Shown piece after piece: positions 6,913 to 31,463 of a stretch of 41,312 nucleotides of DNA. Numbering within the stretch: position 1 is the stretch's first letter; the number at the start of each line of letters is the position of its first letter. The notes beneath the pieces were generated by a model. It made no database searches and was not told the origin of the DNA. It saw nothing but the letters and a program-made list of their open reading frames with translations. A program made the position numbers and the translations under genes. The DNA comes from a virus. Location: the IMG/VR virus record IMGVR_UViG_3300039098_000081, positions 1 to 41,312 of that record; one strand, given 5' to 3'.

Positions 6913-6937
6913 CGGGGGCTTAATGCCCCCGCTCTTT
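6913..6937 (+). terminator. Hairpin after the coat gene, probable weak terminator
   Basis: CGGGGGC (6913-6919) pairs exactly with GCCCCCG (6925-6931) around TTAAT, followed by CTCTTTC. The stem is strong but the U-tract is poor. It could be an attenuator or an mRNA-stabilising 3' hairpin that keeps the coat message abundant. Confidence 0.55.
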
Positions 6938-6953
6938 CAAGGAGCACAGACAC

Positions 6954-7259
6954 ATGGCCGTTTCTTATAAAGACTATGGGGCGCACAACCCTATTCGGGT
7001 ATTCACCGTGACCCTGATTGATGGGGCCGAAGTCGCCACCATCACCACCGATGCCCAGGATGTGACCGTTACCGGCATCACCACCGATGATGTGTTGATC
7101 GGCTTTGAGTATCAGCAGCATGACGATGGCCTGGCGCTCGCCTCGGCCTATATCAGCGCCGACGATACCGTGACTTGTACGTTCGTCAACCCCACCGCTG
7201 GCGCTCTGACTCCGACCGCCGACGCCACCTACACCTTCACCGTTATCAAGGGTGCCTAA
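6954..7259 (+). CDS. Small beta-rich head protein (possible decoration protein)
   Basis: A 101-residue protein immediately after the coat gene, with AAGGAG upstream. It is rich in Thr, Val and Asp, with alternating hydrophobic residues typical of a beta sandwich (TVTGITTDDVLIGFEY, then VIKGA at the end), and has few charges otherwise. Small beta proteins here are often head decoration or fibre proteins. No named family was recognised. Stop and next start overlap (TAATG). Confidence 0.65.
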   Translation: MAVSYKDYGAHNPIRVFTVTLIDGAEVATITTDAQDVTVTGITTDDVLIGFEYQQHDDGLALASAYISADDTVTCTFVNPTAGALTPTADATYTFTVIKGA

Positions 7260-7402
7260 TGGGTTTCCCCATTTCCTGGCAGCAAAGACGTAACCAAGGG
7301 GCGGCTCCGGTCGCCCCTGACCTTTCCTGCCCCCATTGCGGGTTCGTCGGCAAAAACGCCAAATCCCTCAATTGTCACATCGCCAAAAAGCATCCGGGAT
7401 AA
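7259..7402 (+). CDS. C2H2-type zinc finger microprotein
   Basis: A 47-residue protein whose start overlaps the previous stop. A basic N-terminus is followed by Cys24-x2-Cys27-x12-His40-x4-His45, exactly the spacing of a classical C2H2 zinc finger. Phe29 and Leu37 occupy the usual hydrophobic-core positions. C2H2 fingers are uncommon in bacteria and phages. Its place between head genes suggests either a virion-associated zinc protein or an imported DNA-binding module. The motif is seen directly; function is unknown. Confidence 0.7.
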   Translation: MGFPISWQQRRNQGAAPVAPDLSCPHCGFVGKNAKSLNCHIAKKHPG

Positions 7403-7404
7403 CC

Positions 7405-7665
7405 ATGCAGACATACAGCGACACGATTGTTGACCAATACGGCGGTCCAGTTCCCGGCGTACAAATAGCCGTCTATGAGTCTGACGGGGTGACGCTGGCC
7501 GCCATTGACCCGAACCCGCTCACCACCGATAGCAGCGGCGAGTTCTCCTTCACTGCGGCTAACGGCAAGTATGTGTTGGAGATATCCCACCAGAACATTG
7601 TGGCCAAGGCCAAGCAGGTTGTTTTGTTCGACCCGACCGATAACAATTTCCGCACCATCGCATAG
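7405..7665 (+). CDS. Carboxypeptidase-regulatory-like (Ig-fold) structural protein
   Basis: An 86-residue protein starting at ATG 7405, two bases after the previous stop. The sequence TIVDQYGGPVPGVQIAVYE, later SSGEFSFTA and GKYVLEI, follows the prealbumin-like fold of carboxypeptidase regulatory and bacterial Ig-like domains (G-x-P-V-x-G-V, D-x-x-G-x-F, G-x-Y-x-L). Such domains decorate phage heads, baseplates and fibres and often bind surface sugars. It is probably a decoration or small tail protein, in the middle of the head-to-tail gene block. Confidence 0.7.
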   Translation: MQTYSDTIVDQYGGPVPGVQIAVYESDGVTLAAIDPNPLTTDSSGEFSFTAANGKYVLEISHQNIVAKAKQVVLFDPTDNNFRTIA

Positions 7666-7673
7666 GGGCTTTT

Positions 7674-8309
7674 ATGGCCATTGTCGTCACAAATACCGCA
7701 TCCAACCCCTCGCAACAAACCGGCAACCCGCTTACGACCAACGAGGTCCTGGACCTGGCTCTGGGCAAGCAGCACGACACCTCCACCGGCCTGCGGACCA
7801 AGGCCCTGGCGTGGTTAAACGAAACGATGCAAAAGCTTCACTTGGAGCGGGACTGGTTGTGCCTGGAACGTACCGTGGGCCTGACCGCCGCCGACAGCGC
7901 CATACCCAAGCCCGCCGATTATGGGCGGTTCCGCTATGCCAGGTGCGGGGATTTCTTTATCGGTGAGCGGCACCGGTTGTCTGAGGAGGATGTCCACCTC
8001 TCGGCCCCTATCGGCTTCTTTGAAGACGCAACACATATCCGCTTTGCGCACGATGTCGCCGATACCGTGACTCTCGGCTATGCTTGCGCTATCCCGACCT
8101 ATGGCGACAACGCAACCACCGTCCTCGATGCCAAGTTCAAGAATCTGCTGGCCCGCTCTGTACAAACTGCCGTCTACGAGTACGAAAAAGACCAACGGGC
8201 CATTTCCTCCATCCAGTTGGATGAGGTGCTGTTGAACAAGCTCAAGGCCGAAGAGAACCGGCAGCGACCAACACCGAAGCGCTCCAAATACCTGCGAGGG
8301 CGGCGATGA
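7674..8309 (+). CDS. Head-tail adaptor protein
   Basis: A 211-residue protein. N-terminal NEVLDLALGKQ and LAWLNETMQKLHLERDWLCLERT, then a C-terminal helix with ARSVQTAVYEYEKDQR, resemble gp4 (P22) / gp11 (T7) type adaptors. These form the first ring under the portal and extend the DNA channel. The following gene has the size of the P22 gp10-type hub, which supports the call. The basic C-terminus (RSKYLRGRR) overlaps the next start (ATGA). Identification is by position and character; homology is not proven here. Confidence 0.65.
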   Translation: MAIVVTNTASNPSQQTGNPLTTNEVLDLALGKQHDTSTGLRTKALAWLNETMQKLHLERDWLCLERTVGLTAADSAIPKPADYGRFRYARCGDFFIGERHRLSEEDVHLSAPIGFFEDATHIRFAHDVADTVTLGYACAIPTYGDNATTVLDAKFKNLLARSVQTAVYEYEKDQRAISSIQLDEVLLNKLKAEENRQRPTPKRSKYLRGRR

Positions 8310-9724
8310 ACGACTTTAGCGGCGGCGAGAACCTGCAAATCAAGCCCGATGCCGTAAAGCCCAACCAGGTCATGCGGGCGAAAAACTGTTTCGTCAACGA
8401 CGACGGCGACCTGGAAACGCGCCTGGGTAAGGTCAAGATCAACACGTCTTCCTTCGGCGCGGCTCCCGTCCTCGGCGTGTGGCGTTTCGTCAAGGAAAAC
8501 GGCTCCCGGTTCCTCGTCGTGCAGCACAACACCTCTTTGTGGGCGGCGGCATGGGATGGGGAAAGCACCGTCTCCACATGGTCGGAGGTGCAGACCGGCC
8601 TGACCACCGCCAAGCTTTCTGCCGTGGTCTGGAAAGATAACCTCATCCTCGGTAACGGCAGCAACTATATGTTCCGTTTTAACGGGGTGTCCTGCGCCAA
8701 CCTGGGCGGTTCTCCCCCGAAGATGAAGATATTCACCATCTACGCTGGCCGGATATGGGGCATTGATGCCGACAACCCGTCAAATTTCCGCTTCTGCGAG
8801 TTGGAAGACTATGACCTGTGGCCCGCTCTAAACATAGTCCGAGTGCGCGACCAAGACGGCGATGTGTGCCGGGGATTGCATCCGATAGATGGCGGGCTGG
8901 TTATCCTCAAGGACACCTCCGTGTGGCCTCTGTACGGCACGAACATCGACAATCTAAGGCTAGGTACCACCCCTCTGATTGACACCGCTGGTTGCGTCTC
9001 TAACGAGGGCAGTATCCCCGGTGTGTTCTTCGGCGCAAAGAACCTTTACACCTTCGGTATTGCGGAAGTCTCCGAAGCGGCCCCGACCCATACGCCGATC
9101 TTTGACGCTCTGACCGACGCTGAGAAACGGGCGGTTATCGTCGGACTACAACCGACCTTTAAGCGGGCGCTGTTCCACATCCCGGCCAAGGATTTAACCC
9201 TCGTCGCGGACGGCAAACACTCCTGCATCACCACCTGGGAAGGACTCAACGCCAACTGCTTCGCCTGCGCGGACGGCGAAGGCGACGACGGGCGGCTGAT
9301 TCTCGGGGACGCCACGACCGGCGACATCTACATGCTGACCGGCAGCAACGATGCCGGAACCCCGATAACGACCCTCATCAAGACCCCGTACAACGATTTC
9401 GGCAGCAGGAACAACAAGATATTTCGGCGCATCGCGCCCGACCTGACCATGCTGACCGAAGAGGCCTACAGCATCGTCACCACCCTCGACCTTGATTTTC
9501 GCAGCAGCACCGTCAGTCAGACCGATTCGGGCACCGCCGTTAACGAAAGCGGATGGGACGGCGATTTCTGGTCAACATCGGTGTGGGGCACCAAAGACCG
9601 GCTTGACCTGGAATTCTGGCTGCATGACCAGACAGGCAAGAAGGCATCTATCGAAGTGCAGAGCAGCAGCCGCTGCGTTTTGAGCGGCTTGGACGTGGAC
9701 GTTACGGCAACGGAGCGCGAATGA
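8306..9724 (+). CDS. Tail hub / packaged-DNA stabilisation protein (P22 gp10-like)
   Basis: A 472-residue protein rich in beta structure, with repeated W/G/D patterns (GVWRFVKENGSRFLVVQ, KLSAVVWKDNLILGNGSN) typical of beta-propeller tail hubs. P22 gp10, which plugs the portal-adaptor channel and anchors fibres, has about this length and the same place after the adaptor gene. ATGA overlaps join it to both neighbours. The family call is inference from length, order and repeat style. Confidence 0.65.
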   Translation: MNDFSGGENLQIKPDAVKPNQVMRAKNCFVNDDGDLETRLGKVKINTSSFGAAPVLGVWRFVKENGSRFLVVQHNTSLWAAAWDGESTVSTWSEVQTGLTTAKLSAVVWKDNLILGNGSNYMFRFNGVSCANLGGSPPKMKIFTIYAGRIWGIDADNPSNFRFCELEDYDLWPALNIVRVRDQDGDVCRGLHPIDGGLVILKDTSVWPLYGTNIDNLRLGTTPLIDTAGCVSNEGSIPGVFFGAKNLYTFGIAEVSEAAPTHTPIFDALTDAEKRAVIVGLQPTFKRALFHIPAKDLTLVADGKHSCITTWEGLNANCFACADGEGDDGRLILGDATTGDIYMLTGSNDAGTPITTLIKTPYNDFGSRNNKIFRRIAPDLTMLTEEAYSIVTTLDLDFRSSTVSQTDSGTAVNESGWDGDFWSTSVWGTKDRLDLEFWLHDQTGKKASIEVQSSSRCVLSGLDVDVTATERE

Positions 9725-17491: not shown

Positions 17492-17851
17492 ATGTCCGAC
17501 CATATAAGCCATTTTAAAAAAGGCGAATTTGCTTGCCATTGTTGCGGAGTGGAGAAAATCCACCACGCTTTTTTGTTGCGGCTGGACAAGGCCCGGAAGA
17601 TTGCCGGGGTGCCGTTCAAGATAACGTCAGGCTATCGCTGCCAGTCCCATAACGCTGCGGTCGGTTCACGGCCCACCTCCTCGCATGTAAAGGGTAGGGC
17701 GGCAGACCTTGCCGTTATCGGCAATCGAATGCGTTTCCTTGTTCTTGCGGCGCTTATCAAGGCGGGCTTTACCCGTATCGGCATCGGCGAGGGCTTTATC
17801 CATGTGGATTCCGACATAGAGAAAAGTCAGAACGTAACCTGGCTCTATTGA
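17492..17851 (+). CDS. Endolysin, M15-family peptidase
   Basis: A 119-residue Peptidase_M15 domain: TSGYRC, then SSHVKGRAADL with Zn ligands His65 and Asp72, and FIHVD with His104. These are the S-x-H-x-x-G-x-A-x-D and H-x-D signatures of D-Ala-D-Ala carboxypeptidases and L-Ala-D-Glu endopeptidases. It would cut peptidoglycan cross-links at lysis. No signal peptide is present, so it needs a holin to escape. The N-terminal Cys cluster (CHCCG) may add structure. The start abuts the preceding stop. Confidence 0.9.
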   Translation: MSDHISHFKKGEFACHCCGVEKIHHAFLLRLDKARKIAGVPFKITSGYRCQSHNAAVGSRPTSSHVKGRAADLAVIGNRMRFLVLAALIKAGFTRIGIGEGFIHVDSDIEKSQNVTWLY

Positions 17852-17861
17852 TGGAGGCATT

Positions 17862-18023
17862 ATGTGCTTTTGTGAGTTGAAACAAGAGGATCGCTGCTGC
17901 TCCTACTGCGACAACCGGCTGGCTTGTTCGATGGTCTGTAACGCAGTCAATCCGATCTACATGAGCCAGTGCATCAATCTCACATTCAGGAGGCTAGAGA
18001 GTGAGCGAGAAGAAGAAATGTAA
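17862..18023 (+). CDS. Cys-rich 53-residue protein
   Basis: GGAGG lies just before the ATG. The protein contains eight Cys, including MCFC at the start and CCSYC, then ACSMVC, and an acidic tail. The spacing suggests a small metal-binding fold. It overlaps the start of the glycyl radical microprotein by 23 bases. No family recognised. Confidence 0.6.
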   Translation: MCFCELKQEDRCCSYCDNRLACSMVCNAVNPIYMSQCINLTFRRLESEREEEM

Positions 18024-18153
18024 TGCACCCGTTGAGGTCTATTCCCGCGTCTGCGGCTTCTTTCGCCCGGTGAAGTGTTGGAACAAGGGCAAGCAGGAGG
18101 AGTACGAAGAGCGCAAGAACTTTAAAATCACCGAGTTGATGGGGAGCGAATGA
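18001..18153 (+). CDS. Stand-alone NrdD-like glycyl radical domain
   Basis: A 50-residue protein starting at GTG, with GGAGG about ten bases upstream, and overlapping the next start (ATGA). Residues 12-41 (EVYSRVCGFFRPV, then WNKGKQEEYEERKNF) match the C-terminal end of anaerobic class III ribonucleotide reductase. There R-V-C-G-Y/F contains the glycine that carries the radical, Gly19 here. The rest of NrdD is absent from the window. Small free glycyl radical proteins are known: YfiD/GrcA of E. coli and Y06I of phage T4 repair oxygen-broken pyruvate formate-lyase. A similar spare-part role for host NrdD is inferred. Confidence 0.75.
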   Translation: MSEKKKCNAPVEVYSRVCGFFRPVKCWNKGKQEEYEERKNFKITELMGSE

Positions 18154-19004
18154 GCCCAACAGAGCGCATGGAGACGGTCTATCGAGAGCATCCGCAGGGT
18201 ATAGGCCGCGATATCCTGGCAAGGAAGGCACAGGTCGGCACCAAGCGGGCTAGGACGTTCCTCAGGCGCAAGAAAGAGACGATGGAAACGGTTGTCTCCC
18301 TGACTGACTGGCATGTGCCCTATGAAGACGAACGGGCCGTCAATTGTGCTTTGAACTTCTGCCGAGCGATTCAGCCCGACGTTATCGTGATGCACGAAGT
18401 CCATGATTTCTATGACCTGAGCCGCTTCAACCAAGACCCGGCGCGCAAAGAGACGTTACAGGATGAGCTCGACCAGGCCACTAAGTATCTTCGACGTCTG
18501 CGCAAATTCTGCCCCGATTCTCGTCTGATATTACTGGAAAGCAACCATCTCGACAGATTGCGGCGTTTTTTGTGGACAGAAGGCCGGCCGTTGTCTTCCC
18601 TGCGGGCCTTGCAACTCGAAAGCCTGCTGGAACTCCAAGAGCTCGACATCGAATTTCGCCAGAACTGGCACCACAAAGGCGTCCTGTTCAAACACGGCGA
18701 TCTGGTGCGGAAATATGCCGCCTACACAGCCAAGGGCGAGTTTGACAAGGAAGGCTGCGCGGGGGTGACAGGCCATACCCACCGGCTCGGTGCGTTCTAC
18801 ACACGGAAACGGGGAGGTTCCTACGCCTGGTTTGAGTCGGGTTGTCTGTGCGACCTCAACCCTGAGTATATTTCCGGCGTGGCCGACTGGCAGCATGGCG
18901 TCACCCTCGTTAATTTTGAACGCAATGGACGTCAATACTTTGCCGAGCCTGTGCCGATTATCAACGGCCAACTCATCTACGGCGGGAGGGTGATTAGTGC
19001 GTGA
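18150..19004 (+). CDS. Calcineurin-like metallophosphoesterase
   Basis: A 284-residue protein. A short N-terminal helix-turn-helix-like region (about residues 1-42: GRDILARKAQVGTKRARTFLRR) precedes a metallophosphoesterase core. The core has LTDWHVPY (D-x-H), MHEVHDFYD in place of the usual G-D, ESNHLDR (the G-N-H motif), HGD and a final TGHTHR. It would hydrolyse phosphodiesters or phosphomonoesters with two metals; substrate unknown. It is coupled to the glycyl radical gene. Similar enzymes occur in many phage genomes, some acting on nucleotides or nucleic acids. Confidence 0.85.
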   Translation: MSPTERMETVYREHPQGIGRDILARKAQVGTKRARTFLRRKKETMETVVSLTDWHVPYEDERAVNCALNFCRAIQPDVIVMHEVHDFYDLSRFNQDPARKETLQDELDQATKYLRRLRKFCPDSRLILLESNHLDRLRRFLWTEGRPLSSLRALQLESLLELQELDIEFRQNWHHKGVLFKHGDLVRKYAAYTAKGEFDKEGCAGVTGHTHRLGAFYTRKRGGSYAWFESGCLCDLNPEYISGVADWQHGVTLVNFERNGRQYFAEPVPIINGQLIYGGRVISA

Positions 19005-19128
19005 CTATCCCTATTGCCACCAATGCGACAAACCCGCCGAACGAGATTGTGATTGTTTCGCCAAATGCAAAGCCTGCGGCAAAGCCTATAGCGCTAACTG
19101 CCAACAATGCCTGAAAGGAAAGATATGA
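18997..19128 (+). CDS. Double zinc-ribbon microprotein
   Basis: A 43-residue protein from GTG with GGGAGG seven bases upstream; it overlaps the previous stop and the next start. The Cys pattern is CHQC, CDC, CKAC and CQQC, four Cys groups enough for two small zinc sites. No other feature is visible. Probably a DNA-, RNA- or protein-binding adaptor. Confidence 0.65.
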   Translation: MRDYPYCHQCDKPAERDCDCFAKCKACGKAYSANCQQCLKGKI

Positions 19129-19376
19129 AATTCATAGCGCATCACAACGGCAAAGAGATCCCCTATTGGCTCGGCATCTTGATTGCCCTAGATCAGTTCG
19201 CCGGGGCGTTCATCCCTGGTGCGGACGTGGACGAAACCATCAGCAGCCGCATCGGTCGCAGGAAAAAGAAGATGGGCGGCAAGATTCCCTTCTGGCGGCA
19301 TCCTCTCGCTGCGTCCATCGACTACTTTCTGGAAAAGATCGACCCCGGCCACAGCATCGACGCGATAGGGAGTTAA
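19125..19376 (+). CDS. Conserved lysis-region protein (DETISSR type)
   Basis: An 83-residue protein; ATG 19125 has GAAAGGA upstream and overlaps the previous stop. It shows WLGILIALDQFAGAFIPG followed by DVDETISSRIGRR and a DPGHS motif near the end. This layout recurs in small proteins of phage lysis and late regions whose role is unknown. The first hydrophobic part may be a membrane segment. Confidence 0.65.
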   Translation: MKFIAHHNGKEIPYWLGILIALDQFAGAFIPGADVDETISSRIGRRKKKMGGKIPFWRHPLAASIDYFLEKIDPGHSIDAIGS

Positions 19377-23835: not shown

Positions 23836-23886
23836 CCTGCCTTCACACGGCAGGGGTCACTGGTTCGAACCCAGTAACGCCCACCA
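23836..23886 (+). other. 3' half of a tRNA-Val(CAC), attachment core
   Basis: An anticodon arm with stem CCTGCC/GGCAGG and loop TTCACAC (anticodon CAC, Val) is followed by a variable loop, a T arm (CTGG-TTCGAAC-CCAG) and the acceptor strand AACGCCC with ACCA. The 5' half (D arm and GGGCGTT strand) is missing, so this is not a working tRNA. Phages that integrate into tRNA genes carry exactly such a 3' segment so that the host tRNA is restored after insertion. Confidence 0.85.
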
Positions 23887-23941: not shown

Positions 23942-25054
23942 TTAGTTGCACTTTTTTTTCGATTTTAGGGCGGCTTGCAGATGGTCGGAGGCGAGGTGGG
24001 AATAGCGCTTGAGCATCCGCAGGTCTTTGTGGCGGCTCAGGGTGGCGGCGGTGATGGGGTGGACATCGCCCATGATGAGATAGGACACGAACAGGTGGCG
24101 CAGATCGTGCGGACCCTGGACTTTTCCCTTTAGTCCGGCACGGACAACAGCGCGGTTAAACGTACTCTTGATATTGACGTAGGGCTTCTGTGTTTTTAGG
24201 TTTGGGAACAGGTAGTCGGTCTGGTTGCGCTTCGCTGCCAATGCCTCTTCCACGATCTCCACGGCTTCGTCATCCAGGTGGACCGCTTGCAGGTCTTCTT
24301 CGCTTTCCTGGGTCTTGCCGCGAACCCAAACAATCCGCAGTTTCAGGTCAACGTCTTTTTTCAGCAGGAAGCGGGCCTCTTTGCCCCTACAGCCCGTTAA
24401 AATCAGAAACCGATACAAGGGCCTTGATTGGCGGGGCAGGGCGTCAAAAAGGCGTTCTCCCTCTTCTTCTGTCAGCGGGCTTTTGATGGGCGGCAGTCCC
24501 TCGGAAACCTTGACCCCCTCCCACGGATTGCCGCCGACATAATCACTTGCTTTGCCGTGCTTCCAAATTTGCCGGAATGTCCGCACTTCCTTGGCGAGAG
24601 TTGCGGACTTGACCTCTTCCCGCCTTTCCTTAACGTATCCCAGCAAGTCCTTCCGCACCATCTTTCCGATAGGCAACTTGCCGAAATATTTCTTTAGGCG
24701 CTTTACTGCGTAGCGCATCCGCTCGCCGCCGTCCTCATGCTTGCACGCCTCCAAGTCCAACCATTCATCGGCCAGGTCCGCCCACGTCATCTTCGCAGGC
24801 AAAACAAAACCCTCCCCGGCCTGAGCTTGGCGCTTGGCGAGGAGGGCTTGTGCATACTTGATGGAGTTGCTGTCTTTAACGTTTTCGGTTTTCCTGCCGC
24901 CCCGGCAATTGTACTGAATGGCCAGCGGCCCTTTTTTTAGCGGCGAACCGCACTTGGGGCAAGGACCTGGATCGCGGCGGTATACCGTGGGGCGGCAACT
25001 CGGGCAGACGTACTTCCGAAAAATTCCTTTGGGTAGCTTTTTCGGTGTTTTCAT
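23942..25054 (-). CDS. int: Tyrosine integrase with N-terminal zinc ribbon
   Basis: A 370-residue site-specific recombinase. Catalytic signatures are TGCRGKEARFL (first Arg), GPHDLRHLFVSYL (H-x-x-R), SRHKDL and the nucleophile in MLKRYSHLAS. A core-binding SAM-like domain lies around residues 85-185. The first 50 residues contain CPSC and CPKC pairs, an added zinc ribbon, probably the arm-binding end. It lies next to attP and would insert the genome into a tRNA-Val gene. AAGGGC precedes its ATG. Arm repeats overlap its stop codon. Confidence 0.95.
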   Translation of the reverse strand: MKTPKKLPKGIFRKYVCPSCRPTVYRRDPGPCPKCGSPLKKGPLAIQYNCRGGRKTENVKDSNSIKYAQALLAKRQAQAGEGFVLPAKMTWADLADEWLDLEACKHEDGGERMRYAVKRLKKYFGKLPIGKMVRKDLLGYVKERREEVKSATLAKEVRTFRQIWKHGKASDYVGGNPWEGVKVSEGLPPIKSPLTEEEGERLFDALPRQSRPLYRFLILTGCRGKEARFLLKKDVDLKLRIVWVRGKTQESEEDLQAVHLDDEAVEIVEEALAAKRNQTDYLFPNLKTQKPYVNIKSTFNRAVVRAGLKGKVQGPHDLRHLFVSYLIMGDVHPITAATLSRHKDLRMLKRYSHLASDHLQAALKSKKKCN

Positions 25055-31172: not shown

Positions 31173-31463
31173 ATGAACGCAGCACGGATTGACACCTCCC
31201 CGCGATTGCAGCGGGTCAAGAACTACCTCAGCGATGGGCTGAAACACAGCACGATGGACATTATCCAAGCCACCGGCCAATGCGCTATCAATTCCATTGC
31301 CGCAGAGCTACGAGATAATGGTTTTACGGTCAACTGTGAGCGCAAAGGGCATATCTACTATTACCAGATGCCGGAAGTTTTGAACTACCTGCCGCCGAAC
31401 CCCAAGCGCCATTGGCGGGAGCGGGACACCTACCTTGCCCCTCGGCAGAAGTGGGAGGGATGA
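31173..31463 (+). CDS. Winged-helix-like early protein
   Basis: A 96-residue protein after AGGAGGG. QRVKNYLSDGLKHSTMDIIQ, TGQCAINSIAAELRDNGF and HIYYYQM look like a winged helix-turn-helix (helix, turn, recognition helix and wing). A DNA-binding role within the early operon is likely but the target is unknown. Overlaps the next ATG. Confidence 0.7.
   Translation: MNAARIDTSPRLQRVKNYLSDGLKHSTMDIIQATGQCAINSIAAELRDNGFTVNCERKGHIYYYQMPEVLNYLPPNPKRHWRERDTYLAPRQKWEG

Follow-up and report, generated by a model that had tools for sequence, protein, structure and literature searches.

What could a phage do with the radical-carrying end of an anaerobic ribonucleotide reductase (NrdD) in the absence of the remaining enzyme? 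The question is raised by an open reading frame for 50 amino acids on a viral contig of 41,312 nucleotides (IMG/VR record IMGVR_UViG_3300039098_000081), whose whole length is referred to as the window in the following. Glycyl radical enzymes bear their radical on the catalytic chain, which is cut by oxygen at that point. The original prediction, made from the letters alone, regarded the ORF as a free-standing glycyl radical domain that would repair an oxygen-damaged NrdD, in the manner of the spare parts of pyruvate formate-lyase, and it drew attention to a tightly coupled metallophosphoesterase gene.

The ORF is located exactly where it had been predicted (Table 1); its translation is VSEKKKCNAPVEVYSRVCGFFRPVKCWNKGKQEEYEERKNFKITELMGSE, and the radical loop RVCGF forms residues 16-20. 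Residues 6-41 match positions 526-562 of the 562 positions in the Pfam profile NRDD (PF13597; E 3.6e-10; 39.6 bits, the curated cut-off being 26.2), and in NCBIfam the model TIGR02487 and two further NrdD models match the same C-terminal end with E-values from 1e-7 to 5e-8. The profile search proposed with the original prediction thus agrees with its claim that the 50 residues reproduce the radical-carrying end of NrdD only. The lack of a reductase body was likewise foreseen correctly: no second NRDD match was found in the 41,312 bases of the window, and neither the barrel nor the finger-loop catalytic cysteines are present in the 50-residue chain. Because the protein comprises 50 amino acids only and NRDD is found nowhere else in the window, we classify it as a radical domain of the NrdD type and not as an NrdD. 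No glycyl radical domain of the pyruvate formate-lyase type was found in it; up to an E-value of 1, Pfam yields NRDD only. A predicted model of the protein alone (pLDDT 73) has the same strand-strand-helix order as the model of a complete read-through chain described below; a fold search with this 50-residue model by itself gave no useful match, the model being too small. An origin as a chance ORF or as a zinc finger of other descent was also considered, and is ruled out by the Pfam match, the conserved family and the operon context.

Table 1. Features at and around the radical-domain gene of the window (positions refer to the window).
Feature	Position	Strand	Remarks
Peptidase M15 endolysin	17492..17851	+	marks the upstream border of the cassette that is also conserved in the G149 phage
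Cys-rich ORF, 53 aa	17862..18023	+	23-bp overlap with the start of the radical-domain gene; counterpart at the same place in the G149 phage
Shine-Dalgarno AGGAGG	17988..17993	+	7 nt 5' of the GTG at 18001
Glycyl-radical domain CDS, NrdD-type, 50 aa	18001..18153	+	GTG start; Pfam match and family conservation
Cys7 codon	18019-18021	+	predicted fourth zinc ligand of the radical-domain protein
Gly19 codon	18055-18057	+	predicted radical residue of the radical-domain protein
Metallophosphoesterase-like protein, 284 aa	18150..19004	+	phrog_221, E 1.7e-36; aa sequence 89% identical to its G149 phage counterpart
Small Cys-rich ORF, 43 aa	18997..19128	+	closes the shared cassette on its downstream side; aa sequence 81% identical to its G149 phage counterpart

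Scanning viral contigs revealed 24 that carry short free-standing relatives of this domain, none of which is the end of a full NrdD. Sixteen columns are invariant in the 19 aligned members, including Cys7, Arg16, Cys18, Gly19, Pro23, Asn28, Gly30 and Lys31. Gly19, with whose conservation the original prediction stood or fell, is therefore retained throughout; since some of the search patterns included this glycine, its conservation in the viral set is partly by construction, and in a more independent check, which started from NrdD bodies and required only the downstream WNxG motif, the glycine was present in 53 of 53 cases. Together with the Pfam match, this conservation bears out the claim that an NrdD-type glycyl radical domain stands alone in a phage.

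The neighbourhoods of the viral relatives are diverse. GemA of Mu-like phages is encoded near 17 of the 24, often accompanied by a Mor-like gene, MuB or a small HTH-like gene. In several Mu-like phages, this HTH-like gene stands before the radical-domain gene; the window itself encodes a small protein (31173-31463) that resembles it, but far from the radical-domain gene. At another viral locus (L009, 1757-2462), the radical-domain ORF lies upstream of, and overlaps, an ORF for a dCMP deaminase, which is followed by a DNA polymerase. In the ANMV-1 virus (L002, 5677-6111), a 144-aa protein has a zinc-ribbon-like CxxC and a radical domain of the NrdD type at its end; this ORF is annotated as a reductase and contains no barrel.

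With a median pN/pS of 0.27 among the phage copies (the window domain and that of a phage contig in the Desulfuromonadia genome G149 differ with pS 0.73 and pN 0.17), we take the free-standing phage relatives to be under purifying selection and not to be stray fragments. The same values argue against a functionless remnant, captured from a host operon and hitch-hiking since then, a reading that we regard as very improbable. The gene is small, as such a remnant might be, and two viral copies (L023, L024) contain a nonsense codon; yet most viral loci are intact and have start codons and often ribosome sites, and the domain is kept across unrelated phage types with differing neighbourhoods. The two nonsense codons, both TAA, interrupt otherwise intact genes (L023, 5998-6120; L024, 5492-5614) at a site where most relatives have Gln and the window protein has Lys (residue 25). 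These genes are either decayed copies or cases of an unrecognised recoding, of which there is no clear sign at the two loci; on account of the nonsense codons, the gene would seem to be dispensable at times.

A candidate partner for the phage domain exists on bacterial chromosomes. In Desulfuromonadia, and also in Spirochaetes, Lentisphaerae and others, the class III RNR is naturally split: the gene for the NrdD body is followed, on the same strand, by a separate glycyl-radical ORF of 45-60 aa and then by nrdG. About half of the best 80 relatives in the genome contigs are free-standing ORFs of this size, the remainder being ends of full-length NrdDs, and wherever the flank allows an assignment, the free-standing ORFs mostly lie directly 3' of an NrdD body and 5' of nrdG. 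The body in Desulfuromonadia, roughly 660-700 aa long, consists of the barrel with the catalytic cysteines and stops inside the C-terminal zinc ribbon, after the third zinc ligand and without the glycine loop (e.g. PTFTICPVHGYISGEHFSCPHQHEAGAA); the fourth ligand is found on the small piece of 45-60 aa, together with the glycine loop and the WNxGK tail at the C-terminus. Among 57 body matches, 53 have a free-standing, glycine-containing domain less than 1 kb downstream and two overlap it, while one is really full length and one (L126) has no downstream partner. The split is visible in Pfam in 16 out of 16 genomes with such a free-standing ORF, where the NRDD match stops at about position 525-535, spans in-frame stops to reach position 562, or is complemented by a second match covering about 525-562. 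An NRDD match is present in 97 of 194 Desulfuromonadia genomes, nearly all of them split; uninterrupted full-length matches are rare in this group (e.g. G037:C2, G163:C13). A Victivallis genome (G007) possesses two intact full-length NrdDs besides the split body.

Some genomes contain several free-standing radical domains, i.e. four in G015 (L052, L147) and three in G011 (L050, L145), and some of these are far from the NrdD body. Two chromosomal radical-domain genes (L144 in G016, L143 in G012) are located on a different contig than the body, and would therefore have to act in trans. The class III RNR is not the only dNTP source of these hosts, since the B12-dependent NrdJ occurs in all 14 that were checked. 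A B12 riboswitch has been reported before nrdDG in Desulfuromonas (PMC545781); at the gathering threshold of Rfam, we obtained no match to one in 12 split-operon loci or in the window.

How the two chains may be held together is suggested by the position of the cut, which, according to the alignments, falls between zinc ligands three and four. In 41 full-length NrdDs, the ligands follow the pattern C-x2-H ... C-x2-C, then xEV[YW]SR, a few having a longer last spacing. When one body/small-piece pair is read through its stop and aligned with 32 full-length NrdDs, C640, H643, C653 and C675 do not vary; C675 of the read-through chain sits on the small piece. The fourth-ligand Cys occurs with identical spacing in 47 of the 54 small pieces that belong to body/small-piece pairs. 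All seven pieces without it have an alternative in the body (six CPYxH, one CPxC), so that none of the 54 pairs lacks both; as the His is also present there in many bodies of Cys-bearing pairs, and as few lineages account for the seven exceptions, this pattern is supportive, but no proof. The window protein starts just before the fourth ligand, and the spacing from its Cys7 to EV[YW]SR is that of the 47 Cys-bearing chromosomal pairs. We propose that the zinc site is common to both chains and is completed in the phage protein by Cys7; because the fourth ligand is part of the small piece, the zinc may staple this piece to the body.

A structural model is consistent with such an arrangement. The body and small piece, read through as one chain, are predicted to fold with a mean pLDDT of 85.9, and the model aligns with the class III RNR structures 8p2s (residues 95-710, Z 35.0, rmsd 2.8, 563 aligned) and 4u3e (residues 98-712, Z 33.2, rmsd 2.9, 533 aligned). 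As the aligned ranges reach residues 710 and 712, the small-piece region lies inside the match; the alignment used by the predictor held full-length NrdDs, and the model is thus a consistency check rather than independent proof of docking. That a separable domain could work mechanically is made plausible by the NrdD of Prevotella copri, whose radical domain moves as one unit and is disordered when the enzyme is inhibited by dATP (PMC11226230).

The position of the cut also bears on the reading closest to the original prediction, according to which the phage protein is a YfiD-like spare part that replaces the clipped end of an originally intact host NrdD after its cleavage by oxygen. YfiD/GrcA and T4 Y06I serve pyruvate formate-lyase in this way, spare parts for further glycyl radical enzymes have been suggested (PMC8683613), and the boundaries of the domain resemble the piece that cleavage would remove. 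However, the domain already begins at the fourth zinc ligand, and the cleavage site lies downstream of this point; in a cleaved intact enzyme, the phage domain would therefore have to push the corresponding segment aside. Its start fits the split point instead. The distribution of phage copies points in the same direction. In 247 genomes of Desulfovibrionia, which possess an intact NrdD, no phage copy was seen; the matches listed there are almost all full-length NrdDs, and even the best of them (E 8e-19) falls well short of the scores of phage copies (E ~1e-22 to 1e-26). Copies were found in genomes with a split NrdD. We consider this reading unlikely: the idea of a spare part is right in part, but the target would be an NrdD that is made as two chains from the outset, encoded in an operon of body, domain and nrdG, and not a cleaved intact enzyme.

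Matches to the radical-domain family are present in 136 of 277 Desulfuromonadia genomes. The second strong copies that were examined lie in Mu-like prophages of eight genomes (G147, G122, G037, G133, G139, G216, G170, G042) and on a phage contig of 41 kb (G149); that of G243 is located in a phage-like stretch, and that of G076 adjoins a VWA/CobT-like gene, recognised by eye only. At least nine Desulfuromonadia genomes hold a phage copy, and an NrdD body was seen in all second-copy genomes checked, i.e. all but G216. The prophage copy of G042 is identical to one of the viral loci (L015). Phage and chromosomal domains share the loop signature RVCGFFRP: 26 of 27 free domains from phages have it, as do 44 of 75 from chromosomes, and it is absent from all 41 full-length NrdDs. 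Mean identities to phage, Desulfuromonadia, Lentisphaerae-type and Spirochaete-type domains are nearly equal (65-66% each); the donor group of the gene therefore cannot be told by identity, and only the loop signature discriminates.

The contig in G149 is the closest link to a host. Over 1.6 kb it is 77% identical at the nucleotide level to window positions 17506-19131, the remainder of the phage being largely different, and the shared cassette comprises the M15 endolysin, a Cys-rich ORF, the radical domain (68% aa identity), the metallophosphoesterase and the small Cys-rich ORF. The G149 genome has its own split operon with body, small piece and nrdG. Desulfuromonadia are thus likely hosts of the window phage; this assignment depends on a single related phage contig from a single genome, and that contig may have been binned wrongly.

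With a probability of about 0.8, we propose that the phage gene encodes an exchangeable glycyl-radical subunit for the naturally split NrdD of the host. This reading draws on the domain itself, the split, the operon order, the conservation of residues, the shared signature and the co-occurrence in the same genomes, all of which are evident from sequence. In this reading, the NrdD body of the host would be bound by the phage protein, whose Cys7 would complete the zinc site and whose Gly19 would come to lie in the host barrel, where the radical would be formed after activation by the host NrdG. Presumably, such a subunit would keep up or raise the dNTP supply during phage replication. If oxygen cleaved at the glycine, the loss would be confined to the small chain, for which a new one could be substituted; a renewal after oxygen damage by the phage subunit is plausible. 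Points against a subunit are the location of the window copy, which adjoins lysis genes and not replication genes, the nonsense codons of two viral copies, the NrdJ of the hosts checked as a further dNTP source, and the single contig on which the host assignment depends. As an orphan without NrdD body or nrdG next to it, this copy is claimed to work like the subunit of the split enzyme, and not to be the operon's own member.

Docking could also be harmful to the host enzyme: as a decoy or inhibitor, the phage domain would occupy the host NrdG or body and thereby lower or redirect dNTP synthesis. A stand-alone domain could titrate its partners, and the phage copy comes without its own body and NrdG. 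An inhibitor would nevertheless be expected to lose Gly19, and this residue is invariant in the family, as are the others on which activity should depend (Cys7, Arg16, Pro23, Asn28, Gly30 and Lys31); moreover, one virus (L019) retains the small piece together with NrdG and a split NrdD body. We therefore regard a decoy as very improbable. The body of that virus (6924-8669) has an in-frame TGA after GMNECC, and both CxxC of its zinc ribbon are kept in the body. A simple recoding of TGA is not obvious there, because the adjoining RNA polymerase ORF uses TGG and contains no TGA.

The coupling to the metallophosphoesterase proved to be a local feature. It is real in the window, where the start of this gene and the stop of the radical-domain gene overlap in a 4-bp ATGA (18150-18153), and it recurs in the related G149 phage. 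The co-occurrence across phages, for which the original prediction had suggested a search, does not extend further: the two genes adjoin in these two phages only, the metallophosphoesterase-like protein is present in 2 of 277 Desulfuromonadia genomes, and most of the viral family lies near GemA. A general link between radical domain and metallophosphoesterase is thus rejected. At two further viral loci (L006, L012), the neighbouring gene matches DNA-repair exonuclease families, and for L006 the Metallophos match in Pfam is only marginal.

The radical-domain/phosphoesterase pair is flanked by two Cys-rich ORFs (17862-18023 and 18997-19128), which are kept in the G149 phage. No family matches either of them convincingly, and a role as small metal-binding proteins is conceivable. 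Elsewhere in the window, positions 23842-23886 resemble the 3' end of a tRNA gene (ggttcgaacccagtaacgcccacca) beside an integrase gene (23942-25054, minus strand), and are likely to be the attP site; ARAGORN predicts no tRNA gene, and no complete tRNA is present in the window.

The window protein can be compared with several known systems. With the C-terminal domain of class III NrdD (the end of PF13597; 8p2s, 4u3e, 1h7a) it has in common the zinc-ligand Cys, the R-V-x-G-[FY] loop and the WNxGK tail, as well as the strand-strand-helix order of the fused model. It differs from a full NrdD in being a separate chain of 50 aa without barrel, finger-loop cysteines or ATP-cone, and none of the 41 full-length NrdDs compared combines, as it does, a Cys in front of the Gly with Phe-Phe behind it. 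YfiD/GrcA and T4 Y06I are also stand-alone glycyl radical domains, one of them phage-encoded, and replaceable radical carriers. They serve an otherwise intact pyruvate formate-lyase (as of PMC8683613, no further spare parts had been validated), whereas the window protein matches NRDD only in Pfam, and the chromosomal counterpart of the phage domain is, unlike YfiD/GrcA, a normal subunit encoded in an operon with the nrdD body and nrdG. In the split class II RNR NrdJa/NrdJb of Pseudomonas aeruginosa, a C-terminal zinc-containing domain is likewise encoded by a separate gene (PMC5704485), but that enzyme is B12-dependent, and its separate chain bears reducing cysteines and no radical. Phage nrdD genes in pieces are also known from introns, inteins and homing endonucleases (PMC3653736); in these cases the phage's own gene is interrupted, whereas the split considered here recurs in several phyla and is located inside the zinc ribbon. 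A description of a split class III RNR was not found in the open literature that we searched, outside of which lie most subscription journals.

In a wider sense, we consider it fairly probable that the class III RNR of several phyla is an obligate two-chain enzyme with a radical cartridge of 45-60 aa and an inter-chain zinc, that oxygen destroys only the cartridge, and that phages of at least two unrelated types carry plug-in cartridges. If this is true, a radical on a small exchangeable subunit would represent a different enzyme design with a natural route of renewal, and the logic of spare parts would extend beyond pyruvate formate-lyase. The split NrdD and its small piece would provide a tractable two-component system in which to study how the radical is transferred and how its domain moves, and phages would act on the dNTP synthesis of their hosts at the unusually low cost of 150 bp.
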